Of a stretch of 64,000 nucleotides of DNA, positions 2,650 through 24,780 are shown one piece after another. The position numbers and the translations under genes were made by a program. Positions within the stretch are counted from its first letter, which is position 1. Every line of letters starts with the position of its first letter. Location: the NCBI RefSeq assembly GCF_020091405.1, contig NZ_CP081903.1:2666501-2730500 (forward strand), read 5' to 3'. A model generated the notes under the pieces. The model was not told where the DNA came from. It did not search any database and saw only the letters and a program-made list of their open reading frames with translations. Source of the DNA: Bacteroides cellulosilyticus (lineage in GTDB: Bacteria; Bacteroidota; Bacteroidia; Bacteroidales; Bacteroidaceae).

Positions 2650-2679
2650 TCACCACAGAGGACACAGAGTTCACAGAGG
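2650..2679 (+). repeat. CACAGAG-family repeat, left inverted copy beside GxxExxY gene
   Basis: The 30 bases starting TCACCACAGAGGACACAGAG and ending TTCACAGAGG match the reverse complement of 3081-3110 at 28 of 30 positions. The copy lies immediately upstream of the FAD-dehydrogenase start and eight bases beyond the stop of the GxxExxY gene. Internally it is built from repeats of CACAGAG. Confidence 0.9.
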
Positions 2680-2686
2680 GTTAGGG

Positions 2687-3064
2687 TTATAAAATAAAAC
2701 GTTTAATACCGTATTTTAGACTTGGAACATTGAAGTTTAGTAACAGTCCATATTGCAGACCGCTTAGCTTCATGTAAGTAAGAAGCTGGGCGGAGTGAAC
2801 TGGCAGTAAGCTTTCAACGCTTTTTAGTTCTAATATTAATTTCTTTTCAATTAATAAATCAATTCTATAATCAGTATCCAATGTAATTCCTTTATAAATG
2901 ATTGGCAACTTCTTTTGCCTTTCTATTTTTATACCAGCTTTACTTAACTCATAAAATAAGCAGGCTTCGTATGTGCTTTCCAATAATCCGGGGCCTAATT
3001 GTGTATGTACTTCAAATGCATATTTTAATGTTGTCCCAGTCAATATATTAATATCTTCTTCCAT
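2687..3064 (-). CDS. GxxExxY protein, PDDEXK-like nuclease fold
   Basis: A 125-residue protein of the GxxExxY family (PF13366/TIGR04256), which occurs in multiple copies in many environmental and gut bacteria and has no established function. Seen: the signature GLLESTY (about residues 26-32) inside LGPGLLESTYEACL, then the nuclease-like core D-x-L-I near RIDLLI (about 69-74) and the E-L-K of ILELKSV (about 79-85). This fits the D...ExK spacing of PDDEXK enzymes. It is framed on both sides by 30-bp inverted repeats, and the unit sits alone between two housekeeping genes, which suggests a cassette rather than part of an operon. Nuclease activity is inferred from the fold only. The start is ATG, with no clear Shine-Dalgarno sequence, as is usual in Bacteroides. 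Confidence 0.85.
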   Translation of the reverse strand: MEEDINILTGTTLKYAFEVHTQLGPGLLESTYEACLFYELSKAGIKIERQKKLPIIYKGITLDTDYRIDLLIEKKLILELKSVESLLPVHSAQLLTYMKLSGLQYGLLLNFNVPSLKYGIKRFIL

Positions 3065-3080
3065 CTATAATATTTTAAAT

Positions 3081-3110
3081 CCTCTGTGCCCTCTGTGTCC
3101 TCTGTGGTGA
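3081..3110 (-). repeat. CACAGAG-family repeat, right inverted copy beside GxxExxY gene
   Basis: Reads CCTCTGTGCCCTCTGTGTCC then TCTGTGGTGA. Its reverse complement begins TCACCACAGAGGACACAGAG, as does the left copy at 2650-2679. It lies between the GxxExxY start (16 bases away) and the radA stop (next base). Confidence 0.9.
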
Positions 3111-13378: not shown

Positions 13379-14038
13379 TTAATAGTTTATCACTACCAAG
13401 TATTCCCCTTCTGCATGAATGGTGAATTCTGTTTCCGTACTTTCGTTCAGTGTACCTTGCCACCAGTTGGTGAAGTCACTGAGAGGGTATACCAAGCCTT
13501 CGCCTCGCAGATTGTGGGCACCAAAGTTTATGATTGAAATCTGTTGACCCGGTTGGCAGGGGAAAGAACAGGTATCATGGCAAGGAATGAAAATACCATA
13601 ATCTGTCAGCATGCGGACATGAGCTCCGGTATGCATATAATCAATGAGCAGGCTGATATTTCCTAAAGTATGGTCTTCGCGTTTACCTGTGGCTCCTACG
13701 ATAGCGATGTTTCTTTTGCCTTGTGATAAAAGGAAGTTTACGGCTTTGGTCTGGTCGTTGGTTTCCTGGTCGGAGATGTAATGAAGAATATGGTGATATT
13801 TCCGGCGGTTTTCTTCACTCAGGGAATCTCCGTCACCGATAATAACATCAGGTACGTTGCCGCGATCTATATAAGCATCTGCACCGCCATCACAACAAAC
13901 AAGATAAGGAGCGTTTGCCAGTATCTGCAAAGGTCTGGGATGGGTTGGATAATCACCATTGGCTAAAATTACTGCTTCGGGTTCACCACAGAGAACACAG
14001 AGTTCCACTGAATTCTTATTATTATTTTCTTTCATCAT
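13379..14038 (-). CDS. thiN: Thiamine pyrophosphokinase
   Basis: Transfers pyrophosphate from ATP to thiamine to give TPP. Seen: AVILANGDYPTHPRPLQIL near the N-terminus, CCDGGADAY (catalytic acidic strand), DVIIGDGDSLSEE with the paired aspartates, DQETNDQTKAVNFLL (the D-x-x-x-N-D-x-x-K-A motif) and VGATGKREDHTLGN. These make the assignment secure. It is the last gene of the TPP-riboswitch operon after the PnuT transporter, so the pair imports and traps thiamine. Odd: just before the conserved start of the domain, the codons for VELCVLCGE are made by a CACAGAG-family repeat. The start is uncertain: ATGs at 14038 and 14035 are both plausible, and an upstream GTG is less likely. Confidence 0.92.
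   Translation of the reverse strand: MMKENNNKNSVELCVLCGEPEAVILANGDYPTHPRPLQILANAPYLVCCDGGADAYIDRGNVPDVIIGDGDSLSEENRRKYHHILHYISDQETNDQTKAVNFLLSQGKRNIAIVGATGKREDHTLGNISLLIDYMHTGAHVRMLTDYGIFIPCHDTCSFPCQPGQQISIINFGAHNLRGEGLVYPLSDFTNWWQGTLNESTETEFTIHAEGEYLVVINY
13982..14006 (+). repeat. CACAGAG-family repeat, single copy inside thiN
   Basis: TTCACCACAGAGAACACAGA followed by GTTCC matches the arm of the repeats at 2650, 3081, 22794 and 24190. It is translated on the minus strand as part of the thiamine pyrophosphokinase N-terminus. No inverted partner is seen nearby. Confidence 0.85.
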
Positions 14039-21421: not shown

Positions 21422-22393
21422 TTATTGTTTTTTGATTAGTTCCACTTTGTTTCCCTGTTTCTGATAACTGAAGCCGATCATCTCACTCAATACAGGCAGT
21501 ACTTCTTCCAGATTTTCATTTTTCAGGAACCGGACGGTATATCGTTTGGAGGCGGGAACGTTCATTGTATGATTGATAGTTACATTATAACGTCTCTCTA
21601 ATGTTTGCAGGATCTCGGTGAAAGGTGCATCGGTAAATATCAGTTTTCCCGTGATCCAGCCATCTGCATCGGTTGGAGAAACTTCGGTAATGTTGACGGT
21701 GGATGTTTTTTTATCGTACGTCAACTGTTCATTAGGTTTCAGTATCCGCGAGTCGTGAGAGGGAGGGGTAACTTCAACTTTTCCACTTGTCAGGGTAGTG
21801 GTCACCAGTTCATCATCAGCGTATGCCTTTACATTGAATTGGGTTCCTAATACTTTAACAGAGAGTTGGGGCGTTTCTACAACAAACGGTTTTGTGGCAT
21901 CTTTCCGAACAGAAAAATAGGCTTCACCATCGAGGTGCACAAGGCGCTGTGCTTTCGGGAACTTTTCCGGGTATTTGATTACTGTTCCTGCATTCAGCCA
22001 TATTTCGGAGCTATCAGGTAATAGGAAGTGCTTTTTATCACCGTATACAACAGATATCTCAATCCATTTATCCTTCGTGGAAGTATAGTACAGATAACTT
22101 CCTGTAATAATCAGTAGCGGAATCAGGGCTGCTGCAATACGCATTCGTTTTTGATAGAAAGGTCGGGGCACTATTTTCCTATAACCGATCTTTTGGTTTA
22201 CTCTGTTTAATGCAAGTTTAGTGTCCGGGTCTGTTTTTGTTTCCAATTGATCCCAATATTCCAATGAAGCTTTTTCTTTTTCTTCAGTGTCTTTATCTTT
22301 AATGATCCATTTCTGAACCTTCTCTTCCGTTTCGGGAGAGAAGCGGCCGGATAAATATGTTCCGATGATTCTAACGATATTATTCTTCTCCAT
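21422..22393 (-). CDS. FecR-family anti-sigma factor
   Basis: A 323-residue inner-membrane regulator. Seen: a cytoplasmic N-terminal segment with helices RIIGTYLSGRFSPETEEKVQKW (sigma-binding part, about residues 8-29), one membrane helix MRIAAALIPLLIITGSYLYY (about 83-102), the periplasmic FecR domain VYGDKKHFLLPDSSEIWLNAG with LVHLDGEAYFSV and FNVKAYADDELVTTTLTSGKVEV, and a C-terminal DUF4974 domain LIFTDAPFTEILQTLERRYNV. It should hold the sigma factor inactive until the STN domain of the adjacent TonB receptor signals. The sigma gene is now about 1.8 kb upstream because of an inserted IS110 element and repeat DNA. Confidence 0.94.
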   Translation of the reverse strand: MEKNNIVRIIGTYLSGRFSPETEEKVQKWIIKDKDTEEKEKASLEYWDQLETKTDPDTKLALNRVNQKIGYRKIVPRPFYQKRMRIAAALIPLLIITGSYLYYTSTKDKWIEISVVYGDKKHFLLPDSSEIWLNAGTVIKYPEKFPKAQRLVHLDGEAYFSVRKDATKPFVVETPQLSVKVLGTQFNVKAYADDELVTTTLTSGKVEVTPPSHDSRILKPNEQLTYDKKTSTVNITEVSPTDADGWITGKLIFTDAPFTEILQTLERRYNVTINHTMNVPASKRYTVRFLKNENLEEVLPVLSEMIGFSYQKQGNKVELIKKQ

Positions 22394-22576
22394 TCTGTTG
22401 CATTTACTATATATACAGTCAACGGATGAAAAACTCAGTGAGGAAATGAAACTTTTATTGCGGTTATCCTAATCAATATGTAAATGTCGCATATTTTCAT
22501 CTCTGCATCTTTTTACCTAAAGCCGGAACATCAATGTCCAAATCACCTCTACAGTGCCTTCTGAGAGGGGGTAAGG

Positions 22577-22665
22577 AAAGGTAACGACTTTGGGGTAGGA
22601 AAGGTAACGACTGAGGCACCCAAAGGTAACGACTGAGGCTGGCAAAGGTAACGACTTTCCCTAAC
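22577..22665. repeat. 22-bp-period array II (AAAGGTAACGAC units)
   Basis: The word AAAGGTAACGAC starts at 22577, 22600, 22622 and 22644 (spacings 23, 22, 22). The other ten bases of each unit vary (TTTGGGGTAGG, TGAGGCACCC, TGAGGCTGGC, TTTCCCTAAC). It lies about 185 bases upstream of fecR. The 160 bases between fecR and the array, and the 130 bases after it, hold nothing I recognise. Confidence 0.85.
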
Positions 22666-22793
22666 ACAGGTTTTCGGAAGGTTTCAAAGCAAGTGAAGCA
22701 CTCCCTTTTGTACTATTTAATCATCAAGGAATAAAGTTTTTTATATATTGATCCTTTGGGGACATTTATTCATTTTTGAGCGGTTATGAATCT

Positions 22794-22814
22794 TTTCACC
22801 ACAGAGGACACAGA
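22794..22814 (+). repeat. CACAGAG-family hairpin, left fragment cut by IS110
   Basis: TTTCACCACAGAGGACACAG plus A directly abuts the IS110 left boundary. It is the mirror of 24190-24213 across the element, and the missing inner part lies at 24139 onward. Confidence 0.85.
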
Positions 22815-22865
22815 ATTCTAAGACCTGAGCAAATAATTCGGTCTAAAAACACTGTTAATAAAACC

Positions 22866-22902
22866 AAACGAGTAGTGGAGCGTAATGCTTCCCTGCTCGT
22901 TT
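22866..22902 (-). terminator. Terminator hairpin after IS110 transposase
   Basis: AAACGAGTAG pairs with CTGCTCGTTT (nine of ten) overlapping the transposase stop. A T-rich stretch follows on the minus strand. Confidence 0.6.
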
Positions 22903-23902
22903 ATTCTTTATACGTGATTAAATCAACAAAGGGTGTCCCTCTTCTGACTACTGCAAACATTCTGCACACAAGTTTAAACTTTACCGCATTCAGCACTACT
23001 CCATGTTCTTTTCCCTCTTTTCTTTTCCTTTCATAATACTCTTTGAGTTCCTTATCCCATACAACGGCCGATCTTGCAGCCTGCGATAGATCCGCTTTCA
23101 ATAGTCTGGCTCCCGTAGCACATACCCTTGTTTTCCCTTTCACACTGGTTCCTGAAGAATGTTCAAAAGGGGCAATACCCAGATAACAGGCATATTGCCG
23201 TGCGGTTTCAAATGCCTTGAAATTATTAGTATGTATGATTGTATTGATGGCATTAACACTACCAATCCCTTTAATGCTGTTAAGAAGCTGATAGTTTAAG
23301 TTCATAGTCGGATCAGAGCTGACAATCCCGTGCATCTCATCTTCTACGCTTTGAATTTGTTTTTCCAGAATCTTAACCATTTCTTCTGCCCGCCTGCTCG
23401 TAGAGGTGGACTCCCGGTCTTTTCTGTCCGTGATAAATCCCTTGTTTTCAGTCAGATGCTTAACCAGGCGTTTCCTTTCGGACGACAAGTCACGCAAGAT
23501 AAGGACAGCACTGCCGGAAAGTTTGGAATAGGTCAATTCATCCCGATGCAAGTAACCGTAGTAAGCTATCCGCTCGGCATCCACACGGTCATTCTTTCCA
23601 CGGACAAGCCCCAGAGAACGCTTTAAATCCAGAGGAGTGAAAGAACTGTAATCTTGTTTACATGACTCTAAAAACAGACATAAATCATAGCTGTAAATGC
23701 CTGTATTCTCCAAGCAGATGACAGTCTGTTTAGGAGAAATACGCTTCTGCTTCATCCAGGCAAACAATGCTTGATAACCCGTTTTATTATTCGAGACTTG
23801 CTTGTAGTTTGTCTCATCCGCATGTTTCTTTGCGGGATCGTAAATAACAACATCAAGTGTTTTTTTACTGATGTCAATGCCAATAAACCATTTCTTTTTC
23901 AT
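22901..23902 (-). CDS. IS110-family transposase (RuvC-like DEDD plus Tnp20 domain)
   Basis: A 333-residue recombinase. Seen: N-terminal RuvC-like domain with WFIGIDISKKTLDVVIYD (first Asp at about residue 9), VICLENTGIYSYDL (Glu about 64) and RGKNDRVDAERIAYYG (the D-x-x-D pair about 105-108). A coiled-coil-like middle region follows, then the Tnp20 domain with LNSIKGIGSVNAINTII (about 209-225) and FEHSSGTSVKGKTRV carrying the catalytic serine candidates (about 248-262). All expected motifs are intact and the length is normal, so the enzyme looks functional. In the IS110 family this protein works with an element-encoded bridge RNA that pairs with both donor and target DNA; a candidate lies immediately upstream. 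Confidence 0.95.
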   Translation of the reverse strand: MKKKWFIGIDISKKTLDVVIYDPAKKHADETNYKQVSNNKTGYQALFAWMKQKRISPKQTVICLENTGIYSYDLCLFLESCKQDYSSFTPLDLKRSLGLVRGKNDRVDAERIAYYGYLHRDELTYSKLSGSAVLILRDLSSERKRLVKHLTENKGFITDRKDRESTSTSRRAEEMVKILEKQIQSVEDEMHGIVSSDPTMNLNYQLLNSIKGIGSVNAINTIIHTNNFKAFETARQYACYLGIAPFEHSSGTSVKGKTRVCATGARLLKADLSQAARSAVVWDKELKEYYERKRKEGKEHGVVLNAVKFKLVCRMFAVVRRGTPFVDLITYKE

Positions 23903-23903
23903 A

Positions 23904-24086
23904 ACTTCGCATTACTTATTTGAAGTTAACCATAGGTTGAACTCACTAAATCCTTTAATAGGCCAACGACCTAAAATTCTAATTGGGACGATTCAACTGA
24001 AAAGGGAGGCAGGACTAGTTCTGTGTATAGGGCTTCTGCCTAGATCTCACAATAGGTCACCCGCTTCCCTTGGTTAACTCTTATTA
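23904..24086 (-). ncRNA. IS110 bridge RNA
   Basis: A non-coding region between the left end and the transposase ATG, with its own TACCTTTG box. A closing stem GTTAACCA/TGGTTAAC (23925-23932 with 24071-24078) encloses two stem-loops. Target loop (first in the transcript): TGTGAGA (minus strand of 24045-24051) equals the transposase-strand flank at 24140-24146, and ACACAGA (minus strand of 24020-24026) equals the complement of the other flank, 22808-22814. Donor loop (second): TTAGAATT (23975-23982) equals the right-end sequence at 22814-22821, and TAAAGGA (23951-23957) equals the complement of the left end at 24132-24138. An inner helix TAGGC/GCCCTA with an AGAA loop tops the target loop, and GTTGAA/TTCAAC (23936-23941 with 23992-23997) closes the donor loop. 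Order and strand pattern follow the IS621 model. Confidence 0.85.
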
Positions 24087-24090
24087 ACTA

Positions 24091-24098
24091 CAAAGGTA
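24091..24098 (-). promoter_or_regulatory. -7 box for bridge RNA / transposase
   Basis: Reads TACCTTTG on the minus strand (TAnnTTTG), inside the element's left end. The predicted transcript start is about 24086, just before the closing stem of the bridge RNA. Confidence 0.65.
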
Positions 24099-24138
24099 AT
24101 ATTTCAACCCTAAGTTTTAGTAATGCAAATCTAAAGGA

Positions 24139-24213
24139 GTCTCACAGAGTTTAATCAATTTGAAATCAAAAGAATAGAACTTCGTGAGACTCTGTGTTAC
24201 TCTGTGGTGAAAA
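24139..24213 (-). repeat. CACAGAG-family hairpin, right fragment cut by IS110
   Basis: Contains GTCTCACAGAGT at the IS junction and, further right, GTGAGACTCTGTGTTACTCT followed by GTGGTGAAAA. GAGTCTCAC at 24137-24145 (its first two bases being the junction GA) and GTGAGACTC at 24184-24192 are perfect inverses. With 22794-22814 it forms a palindrome of about 95 bases once the IS is removed. Confidence 0.85.
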
Positions 24214-24228
24214 CTCATTTCTGCACTA

Positions 24229-24780
24229 TTATGCCAGCAATAAGAAGAAGTATGAAATAGTTTTCCGTATCTCTTTCAGAGCGAGGCTTAACTGACTTTC
24301 CACATTTCTCTTGGTAGTATTCAGTCGTACGGCTATCTCTTCATTGCTTAGGCCCTCGTTGCGACTTAGCATGTATATCTTTCTCCGTTGTTCCGGCATT
24401 TTTTCTACCGTGTCGTCTATTAGTAATCCGAGTTCTTTGGCTATCAGATCTTCTTCCGAAGTAGAACTACATTCCTGCTGCTGGACATTACTCAGATAAG
24501 TATCCTCTACATATTTGTGTTTCAGAAAGTTGATGGCAGAATTTCTGGCAATTGTATGCAGGTAAGAATCAAATGATTTGGAGATATCGACAGAGTGGCG
24601 GTTCATCCAGAGGTTTACAAATAAATCCTCTGTCAGTTCTTCAGCATCCGGACTCGACTTGATGTAGCCCTGTATAAAGGCTTTTGTCTTACCGTAATAA
24701 GTGATAAAAACCTCCTCGAAGGCCTCATGGCTATCTTGTCGTAAAGCCTCCAAGGTTTTTATATCAATCTTATTGCTCAT
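24229..24780 (-). CDS. ECF-type RNA polymerase sigma-70 factor (FecI-like)
   Basis: A 183-residue sigma factor. Seen: region 2 with AFEEVFITYYGKTKAFIQGYI and AEELTEDLFVNLWMNRHSVD (about residues 18-60), a short linker, and region 4 with MPEQRRKIYMLSRNEGLSNEEIAVRLNTT, whose recognition helix TTKRNVESQLSLALKEIRK is the usual ECF form (about 125-170). It ends in a hydrophobic ISYFFLLLA, common in the Bacteroides members. It should direct transcription of the fecR-TonB receptor set downstream and be held by FecR. An IS110 insertion and repeats separate it from fecR, so readthrough may now be reduced and the downstream genes may depend on another promoter. Confidence 0.94.
   Translation of the reverse strand: MSNKIDIKTLEALRQDSHEAFEEVFITYYGKTKAFIQGYIKSSPDAEELTEDLFVNLWMNRHSVDISKSFDSYLHTIARNSAINFLKHKYVEDTYLSNVQQQECSSTSEEDLIAKELGLLIDDTVEKMPEQRRKIYMLSRNEGLSNEEIAVRLNTTKRNVESQLSLALKEIRKTISYFFLLLA

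Follow-up and report, generated by a model that had tools for sequence, protein, structure and literature searches.

Among the described systems closest to the element studied here, IS621 of E. coli carries its RNA in a long left end, with the target loop placed before the donor loop, the left target and left donor guides (LTG and LDG) pairing with the bottom strand and the right target and right donor guides (RTG and RDG) with the top strand (PMC11208160, PMC11208158). Its nine-base LTG takes in the core together with seven left bases, its LDG spans seven plus one (PMC11208158), and guide stretches of eight or nine bases are reported for IS621 orthologues (PMC11208160). The recombinase is of the DEDD and Ser type (PMC11208160, PMC11208158), with catalytic residues D11, E60, D102, D105 and S241, and a T is preferred at the second core base in IS621 and related orthologues (PMC11208158). 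Furthermore, the joined ends form a sigma-70-type promoter (PMC11208160), and REP-type repeats serve as targets (PMC1525189). In ISEc21 (IS110 group), the upstream non-coding region gives a seekRNA matching both target strands, a circle with a junction promoter is formed, transposase genes of certain IS3-family elements contain the target, and altered guide bases naturally redirect the 72%-identical ISMch6 (PMC11187229). All copies of ISPpu9, ISPpu10, ISPa11 and ISRm19 (7/7, 7/7, 6/6 and 4/4) were found in one extragenic palindrome family in 2006, when guides were not known (PMC1525189), and IS4321 and IS5075 target the terminal inverted repeats of Tn21 (PMC11208160, PMC11187229).

The element described here lies in a 64,000-nucleotide stretch of Bacteroides cellulosilyticus DNA, which was analysed as a whole (the window). 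It resembles IS621 in the placement of the predicted RNA, the loop order, the strand pattern of the predicted guides, an LDG of seven bases plus the first core base, the type of recombinase, a promoter at the joined ends (here a motif only) and the use of REP-type repeats as targets. It differs in a TC core where IS621 has a near-invariant T as the second core base (PMC11208158), in a -33/-7 promoter motif of Bacteroidota type, unlike the sigma-70 type of IS621 (PMC11208160), and in an LTG shifted by one base (PMC11208158). With ISEc21 it shares the upstream non-coding origin of a predicted RNA matching both target strands and, at the level of motifs, the junction promoter, but the target here is a hairpin repeat. 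As in the REP-associated elements, all copies occupy one palindromic repeat family, although host phylum and repeat sequence differ. Like IS4321 and IS5075, it would be an element whose site is an inverted repeat belonging to a different genetic unit, except that those two belong to the IS1111 group and that the hairpin here is known only as a repeat, not as a part of a mobile element.

We are confident, from the sequence evidence assembled below, that this is a recently active IS110-group element moving by bridge-RNA-guided recombination. It would add a new, well-supported case to a mechanism originally demonstrated in E. coli, with unusually good support from natural variation. Target identity, site census, family-wide covariation, natural retargeting, junction promoter motif and core are new relative to the initial annotation of this DNA, and in the open-licence literature searched we found no description of the element, of its repeat (string ACCACAGAG) or of the unit of PF13366 gene and arrays considered further below.

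The element and the predicted guides in its leader

The element, its gene, its junctions and the predicted guides map as follows.

22813-24136, equivalently 22815-24138, minus strand: IS110-group element, 1,324 bp with one copy of the core; six identical copies with the same ends
22901-23902, minus strand: DEDD transposase/recombinase, 333 aa; PF01548 and PF02371 (over cut-off), NF033542
24137-24138, minus strand: left core dinucleotide TC (from the copies, re-read by script)
22813-22814, minus strand: right core dinucleotide TC (from the copies, re-read by script)
24139-24146, minus strand: left target flank TGTGAGAC (from the copies, re-read by script)
22808-22812, minus strand: right target flank TGTGT (from the copies, re-read by script)
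23922-24080, minus strand: predicted bridge-RNA region (fold; 26-sequence alignment with compensatory pairs; covariance-model hit at 23931-24074)
24045-24051, minus strand: LTG TGTGAGA (exact match, re-read by script)
24020-24026, minus strand: RTG ACACAGA, core GA included (exact match, re-read by script)
23975-23982, minus strand: LDG TTAGAATT (match to the right end, with the first core base included)
23951-23957, minus strand: RDG TAAAGGA, core GA included (exact match, re-read by script)

The recombinase matches the solved chains of ISCro4 (9t56, phmmer E 9.7e-25) and IS621 (8wt6, E 1.5e-22). Its D10, E65, D105, D108 and S250 are invariant in a 20-sequence alignment, and we infer from the printed ISCro4 alignment that they are equivalent to the catalytic residues of IS621. 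A DEDD RuvC-like domain together with a Tnp domain holding the catalytic Ser places the element, as judged from its sequence, in the IS110 group of the IS110 family. The layout agrees, with non-coding ends of 234 bp on the left and 86 bp on the right (cores excluded) and the RNA region upstream of the gene. We rejected membership of the IS1111 group, which is marked by an RNA in the right end and subterminal inverted repeats of 7-17 bp, as the RNA here lies in the left end and the right end measures 86 bp. The junctions have only TC in common, with no target duplication beyond this core dinucleotide, and long terminal inverted repeats are absent as judged by reading only; the presence of the uninterrupted target site elsewhere in the genome supports the ends. 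Neither Rfam (no match up to E 1) nor viral contigs (19 pattern matches, no relative among them) yielded a counterpart, and 1,514 plasmid records gave only matches below 60% identity.

The initial annotation had proposed that the region upstream of the transposase folds into two loops whose four guides match the ends and the target of the element, in the order and strand pattern of IS621 and with every match touching a junction. All four matches are present on the minus strand, and the order holds, with two loops, four guides and the target loop first. The matches of RTG, LDG and RDG include core bases and do touch the junctions, but that of the LTG ends one base (a C) short of the core. The bridge-RNA reading as a whole is thus right in all essentials, with this one correction of register. 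The four exact 7-mers occurred together in none of 20,000 dinucleotide-preserving shuffles of 200 leader bases; three occurred in 2 of these shuffles, two in 74 and one in 2,087.

While the LDG fits the IS621 scheme, the LTG has 7/9 matches in register -1 versus 2/9 in the IS621 register, the C beside the core being unmatched, so that a nine-base LTG in register with target and core is not found in this element. Across 30 guide clusters, 21 have a run of at least six, which lies in register 0 in 12, -1 in four, +1 in three and elsewhere in two. Given that guide stretches vary between eight and nine bases among IS621 orthologues (PMC11208160), we read the shifted LTG as variation within the known scheme rather than as exclusion from it. 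The contiguous site TGTGAGATCTGTGT (TGTGAGA-TC-TGTGT) occurs nowhere in the genome at zero mismatches and at one place with one mismatch.

Folded by itself, the leader is only moderately more stable than its shuffles (z -2.11; 7/200 as good), and the structural case therefore rests on relatives. In an alignment of 26 sequences, this element among them, from which the covariance model was built, 16 of the 19 predicted pairs carry two-sided changes that preserve pairing. Paired cells reach 94.7% (71.3% shuffled, at most 58.1% slid), cells with two-sided changes number 154 versus 50 in shuffles, and the structure score is 0.778, where shuffling gives 0.293 and sliding 0.247 or less. Two further counts do not rise above shuffles, namely pairs showing any two-sided change (16 vs 14.0; 54/500 shuffles as high) and pair types (38 vs 35.7; 72/500). 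Prediction of the structure from the same alignment favours it, and the margin on the other measures is still large. The RNA secondary structure thus appears conserved, with strong compensatory change. Of 393 genomes from the order, the covariance model matches 23, counting this one, in which it finds the six copies and nothing else at E ≤ 0.01 among the 150 of 1,769 first-look candidates that were scored.

Copies, target repeat and site occupancy

The genome searched (6.94 Mb, a single contig) holds six copies of the element, represented by one distinct 1,324-bp sequence, loops included. Each insertion interrupts TGTGAGAC-TC-TGTGT, always at an identical position within a dispersed hairpin repeat, of which one arm serves as the target, and TCTGTGT is the right junction in all six. 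In the window, the interrupted repeat comprises two parts.

24139-24213, no strand assigned: larger part of the interrupted hairpin repeat, with the other arm, the loop and the start of the target arm (six copies and 20 empty-copy stretches, L121-L140, aligned)
22793-22812, no strand assigned: remainder, the outer end of the target arm (copies aligned against empty repeats)

The repeat is about 93 bp long, spanning 81-94 bp from outer end to outer end in the 12 empty copies measured and 92-94 bp in 10 of them. In the window, hairpin and element sit between a gene for a sigma-70-type (ECF-like) factor (24229-24780, minus strand) and a FecR-type gene (21422-22393, minus strand), which would normally adjoin in one transcription unit. 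Between hairpin and FecR gene, at 22569-22656, a unit of about 22 bp ending in AAAGGTAACGACT is present in four tandem copies.

The initial annotation had read the target rule as TGTGAGA(C)-TC-TGTGT, to be abandoned should identical loops turn up in copies at unrelated targets. The five other copies are identical, and although their genomic locations are unrelated, the insertion site is TGTGAGAC-TC-TGTGT in every case, as the rule states. An alternative view of this shared target is that the six copies descend from one insertion carried along with its hairpin by recombination or by mobility of the repeat, in which case the common site would say little about guidance. The identity of all six elements and the dispersal of the repeat itself fit such a course. 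We nevertheless regard it as unlikely, as the copies have unrelated outer flanks (identity no higher than 47% across 30 bases on the left and 36% across 80 on the right), and as the repeat bases just outside the element differ between copies, reading TGTGTCC or TGTGTTA on the right and showing variants of the other arm on the left, as separate insertions would give. The covariation across relatives described below is, moreover, independent of this genome.

A whole-genome search found three guide-perfect sites and 23 sites with one mismatch unoccupied, and occupied left junctions only at the six copies, all exact, besides two unrelated strings with three mismatches. Guide-perfect sites are hence occupied in six of nine cases versus none of the 23 one-mismatch sites (Fisher 9.3e-5, a figure that is only a guide, since several sites are two arms of one repeat and not independent). 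Nine of the 23, all empty, read CGTGAGAC, as the opposite arm typically does, three of them lying in the other arm of occupied repeats. Of 118 genomes in the genus, 15 contain the string CACCACAGAGnnACnCAGAG, eight of them with 20-30 matches and seven with at most three, a hairpin with both arms counting twice; the reversed control string gave none among the matches listed.

Guides and flanks among relatives

Relatives were collected by a protein search (1,215 homologues at E ≤ 1e-60, 120 of them listed, without genomic context) and by a scan of genome contigs (218 relatives, the best 80 of 218 kept), to which searches of genus and family added more. Among them, an IS110 at L012, in a genome assigned to the same genus as this one, agrees in all 300 bases upstream with L094 of Bacteroides fluxus YIT 12057, which makes Bacteroides the most likely genus. 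From 120 loci, two had no transposase and five were the element's own copies; among the remaining 113, all left anchors were found in 42 and failed in 71. The frame motifs used as anchors were picked by eye from the same loci, and identical windows were applied to true and permuted pairs. A free search for four guides without fixed positions gave the correct top answer for this element (28/28 bases) and was dropped as a test, because right ends exchanged between loci still scored 22-28, the 28 being reached with an end taken from another copy of the same element; positions fixed by the conserved frame motifs replaced it.

Guides covary with flanks across these relatives. For the left guide and its own flank, the longest runs summed over 23 clusters reach 157 versus 76.6 (sd 5.8) in permuted pairs, and for the right guide 98 versus 49.2 (sd 4.8) over 17 clusters, values that no permutation out of 20,000 reached for the left or for the right. 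The own flank was best or tied in 20/23 clusters on the left and 15/17 on the right. Poor matches are L079 (run of 2) and L047 (4) on the left, and L046 and L096 (3), L010, L052 and L064 (4) on the right; the right ends of L046 and L096, for which the first motif match was taken, are probably miscalled and are still included in the permutation counts. The covariance search added 27 new loci, 16 of them with guide anchors, and duplicates were removed before clustering. These later loci, a small set, gave 37 versus 21.5 on the left (six clusters; 52/20,000 permutations as good) and 28 versus 14.5 on the right (four clusters; 823/20,000). The left flanks of L148 (run of 3) and L154 (4) are unmatched, and among seven later loci read by eye, L147 and L153, in which the left-end anchor had failed, do match.

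One relative from the same genus, L010, has a protein that is 74% identical and keeps the ends and both donor guides. It has other target guides, which fit the flanks of L010 itself apart from a single wobble-type mismatch per side, and its site is a different CACAGAG-type hairpin with a 30-base inverted repeat; the CACCACAGAGnnACnCAGAG pattern, which misfits this hairpin, occurs twice in its genome. We read L010 as a probable natural retargeting, akin to that of ISMch6 relative to ISEc21, except that both target guides differ here (PMC11187229). At L039, with guides and flanks identical in L043, 8/9 left-guide bases match at a TCTGTGATT-TC-TGTGT site, and L087 adjoins CTCTGTGAGTTCTGTGG, its left guide being poor (run of 4) and its right flank missing.

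We rejected hairpin targeting as a general rule in this set, since an inverted repeat of at least 14 was present in only 3/16 rebuilt sites (L001, L010 and L086). The other 13 have 8-11, where swapped flanks have a median of 9 and a 95% point of 21, inflated by L010's own half-hairpin. Separately, the distant IS110 relatives L052, L055, L060 and L092 have right flanks of the type ACAGGCAGG or ACGGGCAGG, which their right guides match fully or nearly so; this suggests another shared repeat target in other Bacteroidota.

That all six copies fall into one repeat family could also mean that the recombinase protein itself reads the CACAGAG hairpin, the loop matches being a by-product such as captured flank sequence, and the transposase does appear responsible in some other palindrome-targeting IS families (IS1397, ISKpn1; PMC1525189). 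Such a reading would leave unexplained why loops match each element's own flanks across 23 guide clusters, why only guide-perfect sites are occupied within the repeat family, why L010 changed its target guides while its donor guides stayed constant, and why the four short segments never met in 20,000 shuffles; we consider it very improbable. Least credible of all is a leader that acts only as a structured mRNA leader or transposase regulator with no guiding, as its position directly upstream of the gene might suggest, for among relatives its loops change along with the flanks, within a conserved frame.

Junction promoter motif, core and inverted arrays

Three further motifs bear on how a bridge RNA would be transcribed.

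24126-24133, minus strand: TAGATTTG, -7-type box at the left end (TAnnTTTG at the start of the left end in 18/23 guide clusters)
22830-22833, minus strand: TTTG, right-end box of the -33 type, at 20 bp from TAGATTTG in the joined state only
24091-24098, minus strand: TACCTTTG, second TAnnTTTG just upstream of the RNA (from sequence; -33 box not identified)

The promoter consensus of B. fragilis combines TAnnTTTG at -7 with TTTG near -33 (PMC7366714; PMC4747536), the -33 motif being reported as not found in Flavobacterium johnsoniae (PMC7366714). With ends joined, the left-end TAG is preceded at exactly 20 bp by a TTG in 15/17 elements (15/15 if the doubtful right ends of L046 and L096 are dropped), whereas the chromosomal flank supplies it in 0/17 in the inserted state, and about 6% of nearby transposase and right-end positions have such a spacing. 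At the level of motifs, the joined ends would be the Bacteroidota counterpart of the IS621 junction promoter. The second box, present near the RNA in 10/23 clusters, may act as a promoter while the element is inserted.

The second core base is C in 40/42 left junctions (21/23 clusters) and in 31/32 called right junctions. Left and right core agree in 18/32 loci (8/17 clusters), and most others have only this C in common, the first base differing in L045, L052, L055, L060, L063, L066, L073, L089, L092, L097 and L098. The CT core of IS621 with its near-invariant second T is thus not what is found here, where the core is TC, and an NC core, as opposed to the NT of IS621 and related orthologues, points to a different subgroup (PMC11208158).

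Taken together, bridge-RNA-guided movement would proceed as follows. The element ends would join in a circle, whose junction would bring the right-end TTTG to 20 bp from the left-end TAGATTTG and thereby create a promoter for leader RNA and transposase. The RNA would fold into two loops, of which the donor loop (TTAGAATT and TAAAGGA) may pair with the joined ends and the target loop (TGTGAGA and ACACAGA) with TGTGAGAC-TC-TGTGT in one arm of the dispersed hairpin repeat, and the DEDD/Ser recombinase would then swap strands at the TC core. Ends, core, guides, conserved fold, guide-flank covariation, site occupancy and junction promoter motif are read from the DNA itself; transcription, RNA-protein binding, circle formation and catalysis we infer from IS621 and ISEc21.

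The target repeat may have a wider history. A PF13366 (PDDEXK_3) nuclease-like gene at about 2696-3040 (minus strand), of a family whose product name we take to be GxxExxY, is bracketed at 2650-3110 by inverted arrays, each made of three 9-bp words of CACAGAG type, and these share their sequence with the outer arms of the dispersed hairpins. Exact inverted repeats of at least 12 flank 26 of the 31 PF13366 loci examined in the genus (31 of 69 matches), compared with 8/500 random windows of the 64-kb window; eight of 13 PF13366 loci share one chromosomal address and are therefore not independent. The array word varies (CACAGAG, CACAGATTA, CGCGGATTA), and in this genome the other PF13366 copy lacks CACAGAG and has different arrays. 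A single array, TTCACCACAGAGAACACAGAGTTCCAC, lies at 13980-14010, with no CTCTGTG partner nearby within the window. Four related elements with different guides sit in CTCTGTG-type sequence, at L001, L010, L039/L043 and, less surely, L087. Tentatively, and with the balance of probability against it, one may suppose that the hairpins are gene-less relatives of the PF13366 unit with its inverted 9-bp arrays, and that Bacteroidota bridge-RNA elements follow such arrays between genomes by changing only their target guides. If so, one RNA-guided element would be following the repeats of a second genetic unit as these change.

With six insertions, nine guide-perfect sites and 23 one-mismatch sites, this genome offers a natural experiment on bridge-RNA stringency and a sequence-only rule for forecasting where such elements may land. 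Furthermore, its relatives supply a compact RNA alignment, a subgroup-specific NC core and a Bacteroidota junction promoter motif, which are needs for studying and using such recombinases in gut Bacteroidota.
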